Shown here piece after piece: positions 32,622-55,660 of a stretch of DNA of 64,000 nucleotides. Each line of letters begins with the position of its first letter. Positions within the stretch are counted from its first letter, which is position 1. The translations under genes and the position numbers were made by a program. Source of the stretch: Pyrenophora tritici-repentis (lineage: Eukaryota > Ascomycota > Dothideomycetes > Pleosporales > Pleosporaceae); contig NC_089394.1 in NCBI RefSeq assembly GCF_003171515.1, positions 2,852,001 through 2,916,000 of the forward strand. The letters are read 5' to 3'. The notes beneath the pieces are model-generated. The model ran no database searches. It had not been told where the DNA came from and saw nothing but the letters and a program-made list of their open reading frames with translations.

Positions 32622-35184
32622 ATGCCGGCAATTCGGGAAGCTCTCGTGGAGCGGACGGGTGTGGCCATGGGTCAACTGGGCACTGTAGTGTCGCACGCCG
32701 AACGCGAAATCGTAGAGTCCCTCTCAACGATACTACGACGGGTGAACATACCGTTCAATTCAACAGGCCCTCCTGGATTGATAGAAGCCAACACAGTCGA
32801 TCCTTGGAACAAGAGCGGAAAATATGCGCTTGCATATGTTTACTTTTGCATACCTCTGTTGGTTATCGCAGCGCTCATGCGCTACTACCACCTATTTACG
32901 GACAAGATCCGAACGGCATTGCATCAAGAAGAGGTATTACAGTCCTCGACGACATCGTCTCCTGCCACAGATTACGAGCTATCAGTACTTGATACTGACA
33001 AGTCCACCATGAAGTTCTTTCCCCGCGAAGGCCCGCTACCTGTCGCGCCTAAAAAACAGTCCAGCGTTTCTTCTCTGGGCCTAATCAACAACACAGTGGC
33101 CTTTTTCCGATTCATCTTCTACCGTCCTATGCGACCAATTACGATCAAAAAGGGATGGAGACCGATCGTGTTCCCATCTCTGGCCATTATCGTCATAGGG
33201 GTCTTGGCTCTGCTACTCGGCATTCTCTACTGCACTGTTCCACAGCCGCTATTCTGGGACAGCATATCCTACGGCTCACCTCCTCTGGCTATTCGCTCGG
33301 GAATGATGGCAGTAGCTTTGATGCCATGGATCGTCGCGCTTGCAACCAAGGCAAACCTCATCTCTATGGTGACAGGTATTAGCCATGAGCGGTTGAACGT
33401 GCTGCACAGATATGCGGCATACATTTGCCTAGTGCTGAGCATTCTGCATACCGTCCCTTTCTATGTCACTCCAGTTTGGGAAAAGGGCGCACATAGGGCT
33501 TTCCAGCAACTGTTCAAGCAACAGGGCGGCATGTACATCTACGGTACCGGTATGTACGTTATTCCCTAGTTGCTATCTTTCGCACTGACATTCCCCAGGT
33601 ATTGCAGCATTAGTTCCCCTATGCTTCCTCTGCGTGCATTCCATTGCACCTCTCCGTCACCGGATGTACGAACTCTTCGTAGCCGTACACGTGCCTGTCG
33701 CCATCGTCTTCCTCGGGATGATGTTTTGGCACTGCAACAACTACCTGACATCATGGAACTACCTTCTAGCTACGGTCGGCATCTGGCTCGTCTCGTACTT
33801 TATGCGACTCTTCTATCTCAACTGGACCCGCCCAAATCAACTCTCGTGGCTCATCGGCGACGAAGCTGCCGTAACACTCATGCCAGAGAACGCTATCAAG
33901 ATCACCATCCCAACGCGGATGCGGTGGAGACCTGGACAGTACGTCTACCTACGTATGCCAGGTATCTCAGTATTCGAGAACCACCCCTTCACCATTGCTT
34001 CGTTATGTAGCGAAGACTTCCCCTCGGAGTATGGCGAGGGCTACCGAGACATGGTGCTGGTCTTCCGACCTTTCGGAGGCTTCACCAGAAAGGTCCTCAA
34101 CACTGCGCTCGACCATGGCCCGTGGCACACATACCGTGCTTTTGTCGATGGACCTTACGGGGGCATGCAGCGACGTATCGAAGCCTTCGATGACGTCGTT
34201 TTGATCGCTGGTGGCAGCGGTATCACTGCCATTGTCTCGCAACTGCTCTCACTAATCAAAAAGATGCGCGATGGCAAAGCCGTCACACGAAAGATCCACG
34301 TGATCTGGGCCCTGAAGCGTCCTGAGACCATGGAGTGGTTCAAGGAGGAGCTCCGCATCTGTCGTGAATACGCACCACCCGAGACAGTAGAGTGCCAATT
34401 CTACATTACTGCTGCCAAACGTAACATGGGCGGCGGTGTGGTTAGCGCAAAGACACCGACTCGTCCAGTGTCACTCTACTTTCATGACAAAGTAAATGAC
34501 GCTTTCCAGAATATTGCTGAACACCGCCTATCTGGCGTCTCATCAAAACGGCACTCTGCTCTCATCCGCGACGAAGCACAAGGTGACCCAGAGAAGGAGT
34601 CTGAGCTTCGTCGTGAGAACGAAGACCACGTCGCAGCGCTCCCACAGGCGCACATGGTCCCCGTCAACAGGGGCCATCTCGCACCACCACGTGCCAGCTA
34701 CAACAGTGGGCGCGAATCGGCCGAGTCAGCGCACAGCGCGAACCCCGATCTTATCTCGCCGGCCCCACGCGGGCTTGCCGCCCGCCGCCAAGAGCGAAAC
34801 CTCCAGCTGGATATCTCACAGGCTGTGTCGGCCGGCTCTGGCGCCGTCAATCCAGAGGTAGTCCACAACCCAACTGAGGGTGCCTTCGACTTTGGCTTCC
34901 CATCCACACCTACCGAGTTCCAGAAGAACCTCATGCGCTTTGCGTTTTTACCTGCAGCCGTCAAGAAGAAGAATGGCTGGAGCACTGAGTACGGACGACC
35001 GGATATCCCATTCATACTCAAGGGGTTGAGTAAGAACTTTGGACGGCGAACATGTGTGTTTGTTTGTGGACCACCCACAATGCGTATCAGTGTTAGTGAG
35101 ACGATCGCACAACTACAAAGCAGTGTGTGGAGTGACAGTGGGCGCGATGAGATCTTCCTCCACGCCGAGAACTACGCTTTATAG
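32622..35184 (+). CDS. Ferric-chelate reductase/NOX-like transmembrane flavocytochrome
   Basis: Two exons, 32622-33549 and 33599-35184 (49-bp intron), 837 aa, long for the family. The N-terminal part has a membrane segment (ALAYVYFCIPLLVIAAL) and a soluble loop. The ferric-reductase transmembrane domain carries haem-ligand histidines in SHERLNVLHRYAAYICLVLS (with ILHTVPF) and VAVHVPVAIVFLGMMFWHCN. The FAD domain has RWRPGQYVYLRMPG and the HPFT motif (FENHPFTIAS); the NAD(P) domain has VVLIAGGSGITAIVSQLLSL and the terminal CGPPTMRISV. A large, charged, probably disordered insertion of about 190 residues splits the NAD(P) domain before VFVCGPP. It likely transfers electrons from NADPH across a membrane to Fe(III)/Cu(II) or another acceptor. 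A second, differently built member lies at 51162. Confidence 0.88.
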
Positions 35185-46622: not shown

Positions 46623-47465
46623 TTACTCGACCTCAGCCTTGGACTCGAAGTTCTCGCCGGCGACGAGCTCGGGGATGTCATCATCGTCCTCGTCGTCATC
46701 GTCCTTCTTCTCGCCGTCCTCACCCTTCTCCTTCTGCATGCTCTGGTAGGATTCGGCGAGTTTGCGCAGCGACGCGAGCGAGTCGGGGCCGAGCTGGTTG
46801 AGGATGCCGGGAACGAGCTCTGTGAGCTCCTTGTCCTCACCGTGTCCGTAGATGGCGAAGGTGTTGGCGGGTACTGATGCGTGAACTATAGTGATGCGAT
46901 TGTTAGTCGATGTTGAGGTGGAGTTGGGATACCGCTGGAGTTCAGGGCCACTCCGCCTTGACCATGTCTCCAGCGTCGCAAGGTACTATTATGTGGGGTG
47001 ACGTACCCTTGGGTGCCGAGAAGTGAATGACGTTGCCGTCGGTCTTGAACATGTTGACCTCCTCAATGGCTTGGATGGGCTGGACATTGAGCTTCTTCAA
47101 CGCCGTCTGGAGCTTCTTGTCGTCGGTGCCGGCGCTCTTGTGGACCTTCTTGACCTTTCGGCGAGGAGTTCCCTTGCCGCTATTTAACCAATTAGCCTCG
47201 AATGTTCCATGTCGACAATGCCCCTCCCGCTTGCTTCTTTGGCTATTGCCCGTTGTGGTGGTTGCTTCGCAAATTCGACATAATGGTGCGGGGCTGTCAA
47301 AATAGAGGACGAGAGGATTGCTTACCCTGCACACAACAATGTTAGCAACTATTGATTCACTCAGACAACACGGTGAGAAGCTACTGGAAGCGATTCCAGC
47401 AGCAACTATGTGTACATACCAATGCGCACCGACGCCTGCATACGCGCCAACTTTGCTTGATCCAT
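46623..47465 (-). CDS. EGD1: Nascent polypeptide-associated complex subunit beta
   Basis: Predicted exons: 47420-47465, a single nucleotide at 47326, 47007-47179 and 46623-46885; 160 aa. The canonical NAC-beta sequence [17 protein letters not shown] can be assembled only if the G at 47326 is included as its own exon between a 93-bp and a 146-bp intron, each with good donor (GTATGT, GTAAGC), branch (GCTAAC, GCTAAT) and acceptor. The NAC domain follows ([55 protein letters not shown]), then a Glu/Asp-rich tail. With NAC-alpha it binds ribosomes near the tunnel exit, via the RRKxKK motif, and shields nascent chains. Length matches yeast Egd1 (157 aa). Confidence 0.9.
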
Positions 47466-48075: not shown

Positions 48076-48785
48076 TTAGAGCATTGCCATTGCGACCACA
48101 CCAGCAGCACCCAACACCCATGAGACGACCTTTACTTGTCCCGCTGCACCAGTTGCACCGGTGGGCTGAGCCGATCTGGGAGAGCTTGGCGAGGAATCGG
48201 TCGATGTTCCGTTGGGGTTGCCAGGGATGTTCTCTTGGGTGACCTTGATGCCTGTGTTGTTTTGGCAGTTGGTGGAGAAGTCGCTCTGCGAGAGTTTGTT
48301 GTTGACCAAGATGACGTCGGCGCACTGTGATTTCATTGTTAGCGTTTTGTTCTTTGTAAGTGGATGACATGGCTTACCTGGTACAGACCACCTGAACCCT
48401 CGTCTGAGTTGCTCACAACCTGGATCGAGGCCTTGGTGCCGTCGGCAACCTTTAATCCTGCTGGAACGGCAATGGGGTTCATGCAGAACTTTCCAAGACC
48501 ATCGACTGTGAGCTGGGGCTTGGCGACTATACTGAAGCCGGTTCCTGGGTTGTCACCAATAGCCATGTAGACGGCGATGTTGGTCTGTGGGTGGCCCAAC
48601 TGAATTTGAACGGGTCCACCGCTGATGGAGAAATTGGTACGCTGCGTCTGGACGTCATCGAAGCCTCCGCAGGGGAAGTTGCCCTCATTGTCATCGTCGA
48701 AACCACGCGCTATTGGGTATATGAGCTCGAAGTGGGCGAAGGCAAAGGGAAGGAAAGAGAGCGCAAGGAGGGAGTTGGAAAGCAT
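48076..48785 (-). CDS. Bim1/X325-like (LPMO-like) copper-binding GPI protein
   Basis: Two exons, 48378-48785 and 48076-48324 (53-bp intron), 218 aa. The signal peptide (MLSNSLLALSFLPFAFA) should be cut just before His, so the mature protein starts HFELIYPIARGFDDDNEGNF, the signature of the X325/Bim1 family. These are LPMO-like proteins that bind copper through the N-terminal His, a second His and an Asp and do not cleave polysaccharides. A second His occurs at mature position 48 (QLGHPQTN), and Asp candidates lie near GGLYQCADV. Four cysteines could form two disulfides. A Ser/Pro/Thr/Asn linker precedes a hydrophobic tail (VVSWVLGAAGVVAMAML) expected to be a GPI signal. In Cryptococcus, Bim1 works with Ctr1 in copper uptake. 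A CTR gene lies directly upstream on the same strand. Confidence 0.85.
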
Positions 48786-49515
48786 CTTGACGGTAGAGAT
48801 GTATGTGTAGGTATCGACAATGTTGTAGGTTAAAACAAGAGAGCGTTGGGTTTTAATAAAAGCGTTTGGAAGGGAAAAAGGCTCAATCACTACTATCAAA
48901 CAAACTTTGGGCGCGTCCTACGTATTTATTGTAGCTCAGGGACAGGCGCGAACCCCCGCAACCCCGTACATTCCTTTCTCAGTAAGCTCGCGTGGATCGC
49001 GTAGAGCAGGAGATGACCACGATCAGGCCTGGGGCGCTCAGACACGACCAAGCGTCTTCCAGATAGGAGGTGGTGAGCACCATACTGCAGCAACGGCGGC
49101 ACTGGCTAGCAATCCGCCGTGATGTGATATGAGCAGATTCGAGAGATGAGCAAGTTTATTACCAAAGCCGTCGTCGGGTGCTTGCAGGTGCACTAGCGCA
49201 GCGACAGGGGTCATGCATTACACTTTGACGCCACGCCGAGACCAGACCTTCGCGTCGCAGTAGACTGGACAAAAAACATGGGAATCATTTCCCATGGACC
49301 GTGAACCGGTGTCGTGGGGTTGGAGGCTGATGATCACGGGAACAAAAGCTTCATTTCACCGATTTGCGATACGTGTGGGGCTACCATGTGGTGATGCGCA
49401 ACTGCTCACAAAAATGGGATTTGATATGAATATGAATATTAGAATAGGTAAGCACTAGGACTGAAAGTGTGGCGGCGTGCGGAGATTTACACATGATTGC
49501 GAGCCTCACAATCCC
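48786..49515 (-). promoter_or_regulatory. Upstream region of Bim1-like gene with four TGAGCA/TGCTCA sites
   Basis: The 730-bp region between the Bim1-like start and the CTR 3' end holds the hexamer TGAGCA at 49074, 49130 and 49147 and its complement TGCTCA at 49403. A given hexamer is expected about once per 2 kb counting both strands. The core matches the yeast Mac1 site (TTTGCTCA) and, from memory, the Aspergillus MacA site (TGTGCTCA). Three sites lie within 79 bp, about 290-370 bp upstream of the ATG. Function is inferred. Confidence 0.5.
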
Positions 49516-50163
49516 TCAATGCATCGTGGCCTGGTTGAATCTGCCAAAGGCCACCTCGCCGATGAATGTGCCAGCCAAAACTGACATGAAATATCCAATG
49601 TTGTATGTCATGACAGCCAACATGCTGCGATATAGTTAGTACCCGTAGGATTACGAACTTGGGTGCTTCCAAACTTACAGGAGATATCCAACGCCTGCTG
49701 CGATCATCACCAAGACTGCCCGCGGCAGATCAGTGCCAAATCTCCAGGGCTGGATGTGAGACACTGGAGCCGAGACAATCCGTACGTTCTCTTGTATGCC
49801 GTTTGTCGTGAGTATGCCGGTAGTTGAGCTCGCATCGCTGTCGCCGATCGCTTTCTCGCCTGCAACGGTGATGTATCGTCGCTTCACAGCGGTTTGTACT
49901 GCCTTGGCTTCGAGGAGGGTCTTGGCTGTGAAGATGGCGCGAAGTGCAACGGCGAGGAAGATGAGGAAGATGCATGTTCCGGCATATTGGCCGGCGTTTG
50001 CTGGAGTCCATGCTTTGGACCATAAGGAGGTGGTGCTGGACTGGAAGAAGGCCATTGCCATGCCTCCTGCTCCCATATCCATTCCGTCCATACCGTTCAT
50101 GCCGTCCATGCCGCTCATGTCCATAGAGTCGTGATCAGCGCCGTGAGCAACCATGATTGCCAA
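49516..50163 (-). CDS. CTR-family high-affinity copper transporter
   Basis: Two exons, 49679-50163 and 49516-49624 (54-bp intron), 197 aa. The extracellular N-terminus is a Mets-type copper-collecting region (MDMSGMDGMNGMDGMDMGAG). Three membrane segments follow: CIFLIFLAVALRAIF, AVLVMIAAGVGYLLMLAVMT and a third starting YFMSVLAGTFIG. Segment 2 contains the essential MxxxM copper filter (MLAVM) and segment 3 the GxxxG packing motif (GTFIG), both assembled across the splice. A cytosolic loop of about 70 residues separates segments 1 and 2. The trimeric channel imports Cu(I) at the plasma membrane. It shares a 1-kb divergent promoter with a metalloreductase and is followed on the same strand by the Bim1-like gene, which supports a copper-uptake role. 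Confidence 0.93.
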
Positions 50164-51161
50164 GTTGAGATGTTGGAGTAGTAAGTGAAATAGGTGGAAG
50201 GTTCGTGTCGAGTATGCTTCGCGGAAGCTGGTGATTTATAAACGAGGGACTACGAGCTACCGAGAATTATGTTACGAGTTCCAGACTGATGATTTGGTAC
50301 TGGGGATGACGACGGCTTAAAGGTTGCTTGAGTACGCGGCGGGGTCACAGTTTCGTGGATCAGGTGATGCAGGCCTCAGGATGGCAACGTATTGGCATTA
50401 AGGCATGAGCTTGAAGGCGCAGATTATTTGTTTCTGTGTAGATGGTTGAGCGCGAATGCGTACGATTCTGTGACAGCTGCGACAATCAAGCGAAGATTAG
50501 GGCTGGGCTGAGGCATGCAGTGTCTGGGGGTTTGAGCACAATTCTTGGCTACGCCTTCCGGCCTACCCACGAGGATGAGAATACGGGAGCCACACCCCTG
50601 ACATGGCCTAGCATGGCCAGTGTGAGTGTGAGTGTGAAGTTGGGGAGAGCCGGTGTGCTCCGCGTTAGTGGCGGGCCTTTGAGCATGAGCCGGGGAGCGA
50701 CTTTGAGCATAATTAACCGCTTCCGGCTAGAAGGCGATACACCATCTTCGGAAAGACGCCACAGCAACAGGGTCTCGACCGCTCAAGTGGTGCACATCCT
50801 ACCTGCGTCTGAGCGACCATACTTCACCGATATGCAGCAGCATATGGCCTACCACTGCCGCTGTGGCTGGCGAACTCGCTGCCCTTATTCACTGTCGCAC
50901 TTCATCCACCCTTTTGTTTGTGCCGCTGCCAAATTATTGTTAATCTCTCAACACCCTTCACCAACACCCCGTAAGCCCGTACTGCTCACTCAGCACGACG
51001 ATCGTTTTTCGATATGCAATTTCGGTGCACCACCATGCGATAAGACGCCGCGTACCCTGTCCGAATTTGACGTGTTCAGGAGAGATTCTGAAGACTGGCG
51101 CAAGAGACCAACTGCAGCTGACACAGCCTGAGGCTGCAAACCTCCACCAACGTTAGACACC
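50164..51161. promoter_or_regulatory. Divergent CTR/metalloreductase promoter with copper-regulon-like sites
   Basis: A 998-bp region between two divergent start codons. It holds the octamer TTTGAGCA three times (50531-50538, 50678-50685, 50702-50709) and TGCTCA once more at 50983-50988. The first copy extends to TGAGCACA, the exact complement of TGTGCTCA, recalled as the Aspergillus MacA site. A near miss TGTGCTCC lies at about 50654. The same core clusters upstream of the Bim1-like gene. A Mac1-type copper-starvation activator is the inferred regulator. A plus-strand ORF inside (50442-51131) has no domain and is judged non-coding. Confidence 0.55.
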
Positions 51162-53279
51162 ATGGACCGTCGCATGTCCATGGGCCACATGCACATGGGC
51201 TCTGGCCCCGCCCTTAAAGAGTGGCCCAAATTCTACTATGCAGTAGTAGCAAGTGCTGTCGCCATCGCGACCCTGGTCAACCTCTACAACTACCTGCTGT
51301 ACCGACAAAGACTGTCTGCAGCAAGACGAGTTTCGCGGACACCGGCAAAGCCGAGAACGTGGTTTGCTCTCGGAAACGCGACGATTTATGCCTTAGCACG
51401 CGAGGCATCCAACTATTCCCTACGCATACCGCTGAAGCGTCGGATGTTCACGTTGCCGACTGTTGGTAAATCGTCCTTGGTCTTGGCAAACATTGTTGTT
51501 CTCATCGTCCTATGTTATCATGGTCTAGATCTGAAGAGTCAGTTCACCCGCGAGAGTGTTGGGTACCGATGTGGTGTCATTACGATTGCACAAATTCCCC
51601 TCGTCTTCCTTCTTGCCGGCAAGAACAACATCATCGGATGGCTGAGCGGCGTCAGCTACGAGCGTTTGAACTGGCTGCATCGATGGTGCGCTAGGTGTAT
51701 GCTCCTCACGGCGACTATGCACATGGGATGGTTCTTCAGTGCATGGGCGCCGTACAACTACATCGGCTACCAACTCAAAAACAACAGGATTGCTTGGAAG
51801 GGCCTCGCCGCATGGTGCACCCTGGTATGGATTGTTTTCAGTTCCATGACGCCCATTCGAGGGCTGAGCTACGAGTTTTTTGTTGTACAACACATTGTCT
51901 CATTCGCAGTATTCCTTGCATTTGTCCATCTCCATACCCCGGCCGAGATGAACGGCTACATCTGGGCACCCGTTGCGATTTTCTTTTTCGATCGTGTCAT
52001 CCGGGGTCTGCGACTGCTATACATAAACATATCACTCCTTCATTCCAAGAAGCAAAGCCAGGCCAAGGGTCTTTTGACATGCAAGGCGGAATTCACACTA
52101 CTTCCACACAACACCACCAAGATCGTTGTCCGAAATCCTCCCATCAGCTGGACTCCTGGCCAGCATGTGTACCTGACCTGCCACTCGATCGCAGCTTTGC
52201 AAAGCCATCCGTTCACCGTGGCATCCATTCCAGAGGATGGAAAGATGGAATTCTACATCAAGGCTGAGAAGGGTGGTACCAAACGGTTTCTCAACTATGC
52301 TGAGAAGTCCAGCGGCCTCATCGAAGCAGCGAACAAGACGAGATCGGTACTCATCGAAGGCCCATATGGATGCATCCGTCCTCTTCGCCAATTTGATAGT
52401 GTCGTCCTACTAGCAGGCAGCACTGGCGGCACCTTTACCGTACCCCTCCTCCGCGACCTTATCCAAGGCTGGCGAGAAAATTCCCGAATCGATACCACAA
52501 ATAGCGGATCAATCTTCAAAGCCCCCATCGGAGCAGTCACCCGCCACATCCGCTTCGTATGGGTCGTCAAAAGCAGAGGCCAACTCAGCTGGTTCTCGGA
52601 GCAACTGTCCTCCATCTACACCGAATACCAAGCCCTAAATTCCGAGCTGCGAGACATCAAACTCGAAATGACCGTCTACGTCACGTGCGATGAATCCTTC
52701 ACCGAAGAGCAAAAGTCCCTCTTATCCGGCGTGACAGCGCCCCGGCCTCGCCAACAAGTCAACCACGGCATCGTACAATACCGTCCGCGCCCAATCTCTA
52801 CTCTAGACGGAGAAAACGCCGACATCAAACCAAAGCTAGAAAAACAAGAAATTGAACTCGCCTCCCTAGACGACATCGACCCACCAAACCCTTGCACCTG
52901 CTACAACACCATCGACGAAACCGCCCCTTCCAACGGAAAAACACCCTGCTGCTGCTCCCCCGCCATCGCTACAGCCTCTTCCTCCTCATCAACACAAACA
53001 CCTACACACTCCCGCGACCCCTCCTCTGCTAAATCAACCCTCCAAGACGCACCCCTTCACCCGGCCATCGCGCTCTACGCCGGCCGCCCCCAAACCCGGG
53101 ACATCGTACGCCGCTCGCTCGAACAGGCGCTGGGCGAGAGTGCAGTAGTGGTATGTGGGCCGCGGGGACTGCTGGCGGATGTAAAGCATGATGTTGTGTA
53201 CTTGAGTGATGAGAGGGCTGTGCATAAGGGGACGGGGGCGCAAGGGATTTATTTCCATGCAGAGGGATTTGGGTGGTGA
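51162..53279 (+). CDS. Ferric/cupric reductase (FRE family) with Met/His-rich N-terminus
   Basis: Single exon, 705 aa. The extracellular N-terminus (MDRRMSMGHMHMGSG) is Met/His-rich like a CTR copper-binding region. Membrane segment KFYYAVVASAVAIATLVNLY is followed by the ferric-reductase domain with haem-ligand histidines in SYERLNWLHRWCARCMLLTA (then TMHMGWFF) and FVVQHIVSFAVFLAFVHLH. The FAD domain has ISWTPGQHVYLTCHS and HPFTVAS; the NADPH domain has VVLLAGSTGGTFTVPLLRDL and the terminal VVVCGPRGLLADVKHD. A disordered, Cys-containing insertion (CTCYNTIDE, CCCSPA) precedes the last motif. FRE enzymes move electrons from cytosolic NADPH through two haems to reduce Fe(III) or Cu(II) outside the cell. 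Sharing a promoter with a CTR gene suggests copper reduction for CTR import. Confidence 0.92.
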   Translation: MDRRMSMGHMHMGSGPALKEWPKFYYAVVASAVAIATLVNLYNYLLYRQRLSAARRVSRTPAKPRTWFALGNATIYALAREASNYSLRIPLKRRMFTLPTVGKSSLVLANIVVLIVLCYHGLDLKSQFTRESVGYRCGVITIAQIPLVFLLAGKNNIIGWLSGVSYERLNWLHRWCARCMLLTATMHMGWFFSAWAPYNYIGYQLKNNRIAWKGLAAWCTLVWIVFSSMTPIRGLSYEFFVVQHIVSFAVFLAFVHLHTPAEMNGYIWAPVAIFFFDRVIRGLRLLYINISLLHSKKQSQAKGLLTCKAEFTLLPHNTTKIVVRNPPISWTPGQHVYLTCHSIAALQSHPFTVASIPEDGKMEFYIKAEKGGTKRFLNYAEKSSGLIEAANKTRSVLIEGPYGCIRPLRQFDSVVLLAGSTGGTFTVPLLRDLIQGWRENSRIDTTNSGSIFKAPIGAVTRHIRFVWVVKSRGQLSWFSEQLSSIYTEYQALNSELRDIKLEMTVYVTCDESFTEEQKSLLSGVTAPRPRQQVNHGIVQYRPRPISTLDGENADIKPKLEKQEIELASLDDIDPPNPCTCYNTIDETAPSNGKTPCCCSPAIATASSSSSTQTPTHSRDPSSAKSTLQDAPLHPAIALYAGRPQTRDIVRRSLEQALGESAVVVCGPRGLLADVKHDVVYLSDERAVHKGTGAQGIYFHAEGFGW

Positions 53280-53857
53280 GAAGTATGAGGGTTGGTCGTG
53301 TGTGGTGGGGGGAAGAAGAGAAGTGGGACGTCGGGCCTCTTTGAGTTCCTTTTTTCTCCATTGTTGTTTATATGATTAGATGGATAACTATATACCTAGT
53401 ACCTATACCTACCTACATTATTATCTCACTATCTGTAACATATCCTACCCCTCTGATATCCTCTTTTGTTCACCTTTTCCCTTTTTCTTTTTCTGGTTCA
53501 AATTCTGTTGATCATCGGCATCGACATCGCAACTAACTAGCGTCGAGATCGAAATCGAAATCGGAATCAGCATCGAGATTGCATGTGTCATATCCGTCAT
53601 TTGTTGAAATCACAACAACAACAACAACAAACAACAAGTTTTGTCCACTTATGGAGATCCCTAGGCAGGGGATACCCTTCTATACGCGTTGAGCTTTGTT
53701 GTTATTGTTTTATTGTTTTTGTTAGTGAGTTAAAAGTCAACAATAATAAAATCAAAGTCTGTGGTCTAATCTATCTCAGTGTAATCGTTGTAGTTGTAAT
53801 CCTTCCTTAGTCGCTCGTCTGTGGAGTAAACTTTGGTGGTTTGGTGGATGTGCAGTA
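53280..53857. other. Intergenic with CAA microsatellite
   Basis: 3' flank of the reductase gene. A (CAA)n microsatellite lies at about 53612-53637, and GATCGAAATCG-like degenerate repeats near 53540-53575. No gene is supported. The transposon boundary begins at 53858. Confidence 0.6.
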
Positions 53858-55009
53858 ATGTCAATCCACGCGTGCCGGGACGCACGGTGTAACGGGACGC
53901 ATTCTTTTCCGGACCCTCGGATTGCCCCCAGTGTTCTTGTCCTAGCAAAGCTCCATTTTATACTTACTTAGTGTGTGATGGGCTAGAGCCTAGTTAGTGA
54001 ATCCTCGATGATATCTCGGTCCGAACGACGCTTAGACCATCCGCACAGTTCATAGGCAGAAGGTTATTCTAAGCCGCTCTCCGAATAACCTTTAGCACGA
54101 GATAGCTTGTAGTTCTCTTCCCCATCGAATATAACTCCAGTATACCTGTGCGATTGCTCCCTGAGCGTAGCCCCTTACATAGCGTACGTGTTAGTGTTGC
54201 TTCTAGAAAGGCCTACGAGGCAGTCTCTTATCTTATTACCAAGTGCGTTGCGGAGGTAGGATATGTTTGCATTATTATCCTATCCTTCTACGTTAGCGTT
54301 AGCAATCTCTTTTTTAAAGCGAGGGTAGAAAGATATAAAGGTCTCATCTTCTTATTAGCGTATAGAGTCTAGGTTCTAGATTACTTTCTACTTACAGTTG
54401 CGTTCTCTATAGAGGAGTTTAAGGTGCTTAAGAAGTTAATAAGGGTTTAGTAAGTTTTATCTAAGCTACATCTCGTAGAACGTTATAACATTCGTCTTTG
54501 CTACTCCTTTAAGGCGCATAATGATGTAGCGTAGCTAAGCCCTAAGGCTTTTAATAGCTAGGGTATCTTCTTTAATTTTACCTTCTATCTCTAGCTTCTA
54601 TCCTCGCTATTGTAATTTGTTACCACCAAACGTAGGAGGGTGAGGTAAGCTTAGACGTGGCTTTAGGGTGGTGTAGATAGGTAAGTCTGTAAGGGGCTAC
54701 GCTCAGGGAGCAATCGCACAGGTATACTGGAGTTATATTCGATGGGGAAGAGAACTACAAGCTATCTCGTGCTAAAGGTTATTCGGAGAGCGGCTTAGAA
54801 TAACCTTCTGCCTATGAACTGTGCGGATGGTCTAAGCGTCGTTCGGACCGAGATATCATCGAGGATTCACTAACTAGGCTCTAGCCCATCACACACTAAG
54901 TAAGTATAAAATGGAGCTTTGCTAGGACAAGAACACTGGGGGCAATCCGAGGGTCCGGAAAAGAATGCGTCCCGTTACACCGTGCGTCCCGGCACGCGTG
55001 GATTGACAT
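53858..55009. mobile_element. Element with perfect 322-bp inverted repeats
   Basis: Two arms, 53858-54179 and 54688-55009, are exact reverse complements as far as I can read. They begin ATGTCAATCCACGCG and are flanked by TA on both sides (53856-53857, 55010-55011), the target duplication of Tc1/mariner elements. The 508-bp centre (54180-54687) is TA-rich with stops in every frame and no recognisable protein. A fold-back or non-autonomous Tc1/mariner-type element fits. Each arm contains GTGATGGGCTAGAGCC (53975-53990, and inverted at 54877-54892), also found diverged at 2190 and 6751. Confidence 0.85.
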
Positions 55010-55660
55010 TACAGTACCACGGTACCACATTACCAAGCCCTTACCATACCATTGCACTTCAAACGTCACCAGACTAGCAAACAATCTCGGGTTTTGAATC
55101 ATAACATACGCATTCATCTCAAGAAAAGGGTTACTAACAGAGAGAAAGAGAGAGAAAAAATGATCGTAGTAGTAGTAGTACACCACGGCGTACCCCCTAA
55201 GTCCACACAAGCCCACACACAAGCTTACAACCCAACCCGACCCAACCCAGCACCTGAATTAACGGTATAAAACGCCCCTTATCCAAAAGAAGACTCGTCC
55301 GCAAAACACCAGCCAAGAAAAAGAAACCCAAGATATCTCGCAAAAAAGAAGATGCTAGCATCCAGTGTTTGTGGGAGGAAGAAAAAATTGATAAACAAAG
55401 GGAAGAGATTTTGTGGGGGTAGTGGAATGTGGGACAACAGCGACTCGCTCGCTCGCTCGGTCGCTGTTCCCCTTTGTCTCTTTCTCTCTCTTTCTCATCC
55501 AACGCATGAACAACACCCCTCTCTCTACCCATTTCCGTTTCCATTTCTCTCCATTTGCATAATCGTATCCTTCCTGTATAAAGAGACCCTTTCCGTGTTC
55601 ATGTCAACGCCGTTCGTAGTATAATCGTAATCGTTCCGGAGTACTAACGCACCGCCCTTC
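55010..55660. other. Intergenic, 3' flank of NIMA-type kinase gene
   Basis: Simple AG-, TC- and GCTC-rich stretches (about 55139-55160, 55443-55460, 55475-55500) but no gene. Confidence 0.5.

Follow-up and report, generated by a model that had tools for sequence, protein, structure and literature searches.

Do three neighbouring genes of Pyrenophora tritici-repentis, encoding a BIM1/X325-like copper-binding protein, a CTR copper transporter and a FRE-family metalloreductase, work together in the acquisition of copper, or are they neighbours by accident? The genes lie at 48076-53279 of a 64-kb stretch of the genome (G000:C5:2852001-2916000; genome size 40.9 Mb), which is referred to here as the window and to which all positions refer unless another contig is named. 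We propose that BIM1, CTR and FRE probably constitute a copper-starvation gene cluster. The proposal draws on the identities of the genes, their intact functional residues, a divergent promoter, an enrichment of transcription factor sites and a conserved linkage, all of which were observed.

In the proposed mechanism, low copper would lead a Mac1-type copper-fist factor to bind TGCTCA both between CTR and FRE and upstream of BIM1, and thereby to activate the three genes. At the cell surface, where it would be retained, BIM1 would bind Cu(II) at its His-brace site. FRE would reduce Cu(II) to Cu(I) with electrons from NADPH, and CTR would import the Cu(I). The handover of Cu(II) from BIM1 is a presumed step of this pathway.

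Gene models and predicted proteins

Open reading frames and Pfam profile matching placed three complete genes within 48076-53279, in agreement with a preliminary description of the locus which had given these coordinates for three adjacent genes. The BIM1/X325-like gene (48785..48076, minus strand) encodes 218 amino acids in two exons (48785..48378 and 48324..48076) separated by a 53-bp GT-AG intron (48377..48325). The CTR gene (50154..49516, minus strand; 194 amino acids) also consists of two exons (50154..49679 and 49624..49516), with a 54-bp GT-AG intron (49678..49625), and the FRE gene (51162..53279, plus strand; 705 amino acids) is intronless. CTR and FRE are transcribed divergently, with 1,007 bp separating their start codons (50155..51161), so that the divergent promoter of the preliminary description is indeed present. 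BIM1 is located behind CTR on the strand of CTR, and its 730-bp upstream region (48786..49515) is at the same time the 3' flank of CTR.

The identities first proposed for the three genes were upheld, every Pfam cut-off being exceeded. For comparison, homologues of each protein were listed as the best 120 of 135 (BIM1), 120 of 793 (CTR) and 120 of 963 (FRE; 8,000 candidates scored), each listed entry being a cluster at 90% identity rather than a genome. The BIM1 product scores 126.4 bits against PF20238 (cut-off 27) and is 100% identical, over its full length, to P. tritici-repentis PtrSN002B_006793. Its probable signal peptide ends in AFA, after which the mature N-terminal residue would be His (H18). 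H18, H65 and D139, the last within a CADV motif, align with LaX325 (PDB: 6ibh; E value 9.9e-12) and are invariant across 34 aligned sequences (34 of the 120 listed). On this alignment the protein appears to carry a complete histidine brace, i.e., a mature N-terminal His, a second His and an Asp, and we take D139 to be part of the copper site. The C-terminus comprises a Ser/Thr/Ala-rich linker and then a hydrophobic tail, an arrangement that recurs in the 34 sequences, and the tail is a probable glycosylphosphatidylinositol (GPI) signal.

The CTR product scores 127.2 bits against PF04145 (cut-off 25.3). M160xxxM164 and G177xxxG181, which we place in the second and third transmembrane segments (TM2 and TM3), respectively, are invariant in 26 aligned sequences (the query and 25 of the 120 listed), and the N-terminus is Met-rich, as it is in most of the 26. 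The FRE product contains all three domains of a metalloreductase of this family, Ferric_reduct (PF01794), FAD_binding_8 (PF08022) and NAD_binding_6 (PF08030), with scores of 95, 73.6 and 55 bits against cut-offs of 28, 22 and 22.2, respectively. Two HX13H pairs (H173/H187 and H244/H258) and the motifs HPFT and CGP are invariant in 22 aligned sequences (the query and 21 of the 120 listed), and a GSTG motif is also present. Presumably, the HX13H pairs are the haem ligands, and HPFT, GSTG and CGP are functional motifs of the reductase.

The beginning of FRE, MDRRMSMGHMHMGSGP, is rich in Met and His (7 of the first 16 residues), which bears out the Met/His-tagged reductase of the preliminary description. 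Of the listed FRE homologues, 113 begin with Met; four or more Met or His residues are present among the first 16 in 58 of these and just one in 22, although some of these 22 may have wrong gene starts. The nine other long FRE frames of the genome have one to three such residues, some of their starts being uncertain. Judged indirectly, from this Met/His-rich start and from the promoter described below, the substrate of the window FRE may be copper rather than iron.

Mac1-core sites in the two promoters

The consensus obtained by chromatin immunoprecipitation sequencing (ChIP-seq) of Fusarium oxysporum Mac1 is DHNTGCTCANNN, with the core TGCTCA (PMC11563359; this and most other papers are cited from passages of their text). 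Counted on both strands (TGCTCA/TGAGCA), the core is found four times in the BIM1 upstream region (starts at 49074, 49130, 49147 and 49403), four times between CTR and FRE (starts at 50533, 50680, 50704 and 50983) and 37 times elsewhere in the window. The two promoters thus hold eight sites together, where the remainder of the window would lead one to expect 1.03 (Poisson P 1.3e-5). Taken separately, the BIM1 upstream region holds four in 730 bp (0.43 expected; Poisson P 0.001) and the CTR/FRE intergenic region four in 1,007 bp (0.60 expected; Poisson P 0.003). None of 5,000 Markov simulations reached eight sites. A chance sharing of the motif was considered and judged unlikely, since TGCTCA ranks first among 2,080 hexamers by enrichment in the two promoters. 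GTGCAC ranks second; it is a palindrome counted on both strands, and its P value is thereby overstated.

The sites at 50533, 50680 and 50704 extend to the 8-mer TGCTCAAA, of which the 64-kb window has three copies, all between CTR and FRE. The site at 50533 is also part of TGTGCTCA, an 8-mer with two occurrences in the window, one of them in the CTR/FRE promoter, and which we take to be the site of A. fumigatus Mac1. No enrichment was seen for the yeast form TTTGCTC, which has nine sites in the window and none in the two promoters. The pair has the make-up of a Mac1-type divergent pair, i.e., CTR and FRE with TGCTCA, here in four copies, between them. The shared upstream motifs of the preliminary description are thus represented by TGCTCA, which is found in both promoters and matches the F. 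oxysporum Mac1 core. The distribution of the sites suggests that Mac1 may bind at both promoters and that the three genes may be co-induced.

Conservation of the linkage

The preliminary description would have abandoned a functional unit had the gene order been unique to this strain. That possibility was ruled out by contig sharing and by neighbouring locus tags, and the linkage recurs in many Pleosporales. Listed BIM1, CTR and FRE homologues were paired when their contigs had exactly equal base counts; 118 of the 120 FRE entries were used, two short contigs being left out. On contigs of at least 5 kb, 40 of 73 BIM1 entries share their contig with a CTR and/or FRE entry, while 14 offset controls gave one match in total. 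All three genes are on one contig in 16 entries, 14 of which are named species. On contigs shorter than 5 kb the test is uninformative (2 of 47 shared, versus 0 to 3 per offset control). Eleven of the 40 shared contigs are below 100 kb, and megabase contigs cannot show adjacency. All three genes are present on a contig of 14,944 bases from Delitschia confertaspora and on a metagenome contig of 7,153 bases, and BIM1 and CTR are together on a contig of 27,012 bases from Glonium stellatum. In the Mytilinidiales, Lepidopterella has BIM1 and CTR on 148 kb, and for Lophium the evidence is confined to a 2.5-Mb contig that carries BIM1 and FRE. With CTR and/or FRE as the partner, linkage of BIM1 spans the Pleosporales, the Gloniales (Glonium) and the Mytilinidiales.

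Locus tags give a finer view of gene order. They are consecutive for CTR and BIM1 in Coniothyrium glycines (ACN47E_007701 and 007702) and in Pleosporales CAS-2024a (ACEQ8H_003149 and 003150). In Curvularia clavata (BIM1 yc1106_08340, FRE 08342) and Alternaria panax (a fused NAC-BIM1 model G6011_07213, FRE 07215) the tags leave a gap of one number, as the order BIM1-CTR-FRE would give. Among the matches listed, no CTR or FRE partner was found for 15 of the 43 named BIM1 entries, e.g., Botryosphaeria, Lasiodiplodia, Taxawa and cf. Caloplaca; with entries that are 90% clusters, a missing partner does not amount to absence of the cluster. In Pyrenophora, Alternaria and Bipolaris, the missing partners are probably due to this clustering.

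The fused model in A. panax is one of seven such models among the 120 listed BIM1 entries (from Alternaria, Delitschia, Dendryphion and Clohesyomyces), in which BIM1 is joined to the beta subunit of the nascent polypeptide-associated complex (NAC-beta). The BIM1 C-terminal tail is wholly or partly missing from the fused proteins, which are most likely prediction errors that span two tandem genes. In the window, an EGD1-like NAC-beta gene (46623..47465, minus strand) is located downstream of BIM1 on the same strand, across a 610-bp gap. Several BIM1-only metagenome proteins are named "nascent polypeptide-associated complex subunit beta", a name perhaps copied from the fused models.

Comparison with known systems

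In Aspergillus nidulans, AnctrA and AnfreC are adjacent and share a Mac1-bound promoter, and a CTR/FRE pair was reported in 110 of 127 screened fungal species (PMC7705104). The window resembles this system in its CTR/FRE pair with a common promoter and differs from it in the BIM1 gene that follows CTR on the same strand; the text of that paper contains neither the word Bim1 nor LPMO (lytic polysaccharide monooxygenase). In F. oxysporum, the ctr3/fre9/FOXG_07771 cluster and the fre12/ctr1b pair are induced by copper limitation, a CTR/FRE pair has three predicted Mac1 sites together with ChIP-seq data, and low-copper growth of the mac1-null mutant is rescued by ctr3 plus fre9 and not by ctr3 alone (PMC11563359). 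Divergent CTR and FRE genes, several Mac1 sites and the same TGCTCA core are common to F. oxysporum and the window, but the third gene there, FOXG_07771, is listed as that of a SAM domain-containing protein, and "Bim1" is absent from the text. None of the F. oxysporum Mac1 targets bears the name Bim1; for two of them the only description is "uncharacterised protein", and one of these two is divergent from fre10 (PMC11563359).

Evidence on BIM1 itself comes from Cryptococcus neoformans, where Cbi1/Bim1 is an X325 protein with a His brace and a GPI anchor that works with Ctr1 and is induced by copper starvation (PMC9258870, PMC7924993). It is controlled by Cuf1, whereas the sites in the window are of the Mac1 type, and the passages of these papers do not report a reductase gene physically clustered with it. 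When Pseudogymnoascus destructans is deprived of copper, it induces two CTRs, two BIM1-like proteins and FRE homologues (PMC12113139, PMC13208438). These (CTR1a/b, BLP2/BLP3 and the FRE homologues) belong to the same three families as the window genes. The Cu-responsive cluster of that species is a different one, opine-metallophore-like and with its own metalloreductase (PMC12113139, PMC13208438, PMC11509074).

The preliminary description knew of no physical cluster of this kind with a dedicated reductase in a Dothideomycete. As a claim of novelty this is not supported: CTR genes paired with a reductase have been published for A. nidulans and F. oxysporum (PMC7705104, PMC11563359), and the idea that the locus is the first such cluster was rejected. 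The addition of BIM1 fares better. A BIM1-CTR-FRE cluster was not found in the titles, beginnings of abstracts and passages of the open-access PubMed Central (PMC) literature, and could be described elsewhere. The locus is a conserved extension of the known CTR/FRE unit, and the part of it that appears undescribed is the conserved presence of BIM1 as the third gene, with Mac1-core sites of its own.

Paralogues and other CTR/FRE pairs in the genome

Genome-wide, there are three BIM1-like genes, six CTR genes and 16 separate loci above the Ferric_reduct cut-off, the latter obtained from 20 matches after exons of the same gene were merged. Two copper-fist matches are candidates for Mac1 and its relatives. 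In addition to the pair in the window, CTR and FRE form two further divergent pairs, at C10 3868357-3870308 (L005, L017) and at C5 2787091-2789471 (L009, L023), the second being about 112 kb from the window pair on the same contig. Both of these FREs have 27% identity to the window FRE, and the second C5 CTR has 33% identity to the window CTR; the C10 CTR gave no match to the window CTR at an E value of 1e-3. With such low identity to the window pair, these two are old or separate pairings. The window CTR is Met-rich, and the C10 CTR starts with MLWNWRVTDAC and presumably resembles the Ctr3 type more.

There are two TGCTCA sites between the genes of the C10 pair and three in the 1 kb upstream of the second C5 CTR, the start of its FRE not being fixed. 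Such upstream counts are affected by uncertain start codons of intron-bearing genes, among them several FREs including L023. Three CTR genes are not part of a pair; two of them have two TGCTCA sites each within 1 kb upstream, and the third has none. For the remaining two BIM1 genes, the closest CTR or FRE match listed for the same contig is about 278 kb away in one case and about 689 kb in the other. One of these two genes, on another contig than the window, is preceded by three TGCTCA sites within 1 kb, and the other by none. The C10 BIM1 paralogue is preceded by a pair of Mac1-core sites in facing orientation (TTGCTCACTGAGCA; L003, 835-848), at distances of 437 and 444 bp from its start codon.

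Alternative explanations

Several observations weigh against reading the locus as a copper-starvation cluster. The P value for TGCTCA is about 0.03 once corrected for 2,080 hexamers, and the motif is a short one, a hexamer with 37 further sites in the window. Some other FRE upstream regions hold one or two copies, and the motif is missing from the 1 kb upstream of one of the six CTR genes. The 610-bp gap between NAC-beta and BIM1 also has none, which is a weak control with 0.36 expected. For P. destructans, the authors detected no yeast-type Mac1 consensus in the CTR promoters (PMC11509074), and the wide spacing of the CTR and BLP locus tags makes the genes appear unlinked, so that co-induction would not need clustering (PMC12113139, PMC13208438). 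Moreover, conserved adjacency says little about function, since NAC-beta, which has no known copper role, recurs beside BIM1 too. The Mac1-core sites of BIM1 itself and the known roles of the families are stronger arguments than adjacency. The functional unit might then be CTR and FRE only, i.e., the known Mac1 pair, with BIM1 a passenger that has stayed in place because gene order changes slowly; the same may hold for NAC-beta. Such an account would fit the recurrence of NAC-beta (fused models in four genera), the description of the A. nidulans and F. oxysporum pairs without any mention of Bim1 in the two texts (PMC7705104, PMC11563359), the apparent lack of linkage in P. destructans, and the hundreds of kb between the other two BIM1 genes and listed CTR or FRE matches. 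It leaves unexplained why BIM1 has four TGCTCA sites in its own 730 bp against 0.43 expected, and why one paralogue has three in 1 kb upstream, although the third paralogue has none. BIM1 also acts together with Ctr1 in Cryptococcus (PMC9258870), and we regard a passenger BIM1 as somewhat unlikely.

Another possibility concerns the metal reduced. FRE proteins are able to reduce both copper and iron, and homologues of the window FRE are labelled ferric-chelate reductase or Frp1 in databases, names which also count against a role in copper starvation. FRE could accordingly be mainly an iron (or haem-iron) reductase in a cluster that couples copper uptake to iron acquisition, and Frp proteins do serve haem uptake in Candida (PMC9635878). 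Against this, four Mac1-core sites lie in the promoter from which the gene and CTR diverge, the Met/His-rich N-terminus of FRE is similar to the Met-rich beginning of CTR, and in F. oxysporum ctr3 restores growth of the mac1 mutant at low copper only when the CTR-paired fre9 is expressed as well (PMC11563359); we consider an iron reductase quite improbable. It is very improbable that BIM1 acts on the cell wall, in a structural or LPMO-like capacity, instead of scavenging copper. In Cryptococcus, Cbi1 has been tied to changes of the cell wall and the capsule (PMC9258870, PMC13208438) and the X325 family is LPMO-like, but several of its members have no detected polysaccharide-degrading activity (PMC7924993), and the linkage of BIM1 to CTR and FRE, together with its putative copper-response sites, points away from the wall.

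Neighbouring features of the window

A 1,168-bp element (53850-55017) begins about 570 bp past the FRE stop codon. It has 330-bp terminal inverted repeats (99% complementary) with 508 bp between the arms. An arm has 48 matches genome-wide, including both of its own arms, and many of these cover only positions 125-330. Because the arm matches so many genomic places, the element looks like a non-autonomous DNA transposon or a foldback element. Another gene with a Ferric_reduct domain, matched in two pieces, is present at 33297-33720, about 17 kb from the FRE of the cluster.

Implications for copper uptake

To our knowledge, it is not settled how BIM1, which binds Cu(II), can supply a transporter whose substrate is Cu(I). 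The proposed copper-starvation cluster pairs one BIM1, one reductase and one CTR and so names a candidate reductase. We also entertain, as an unlikely elaboration, a surface relay in which BIM1 would take up Cu(II) within the cell wall and pass it to the Met/His-rich N-terminus of FRE for reduction, and the resulting Cu(I) would go directly to the Met-rich N-terminus of CTR, being channelled and not released. If this were true, the conserved cluster would be a co-adapted set, and the BIM1-Ctr pathway would gain its missing reductase. At the regulatory level, the locus predicts that BIM1 would be under Mac1 control in Dothideomycetes, and whether BIM1 belongs to the Mac1 regulon elsewhere could be checked from the sequences of the two uncharacterised Mac1 targets of F. 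oxysporum.

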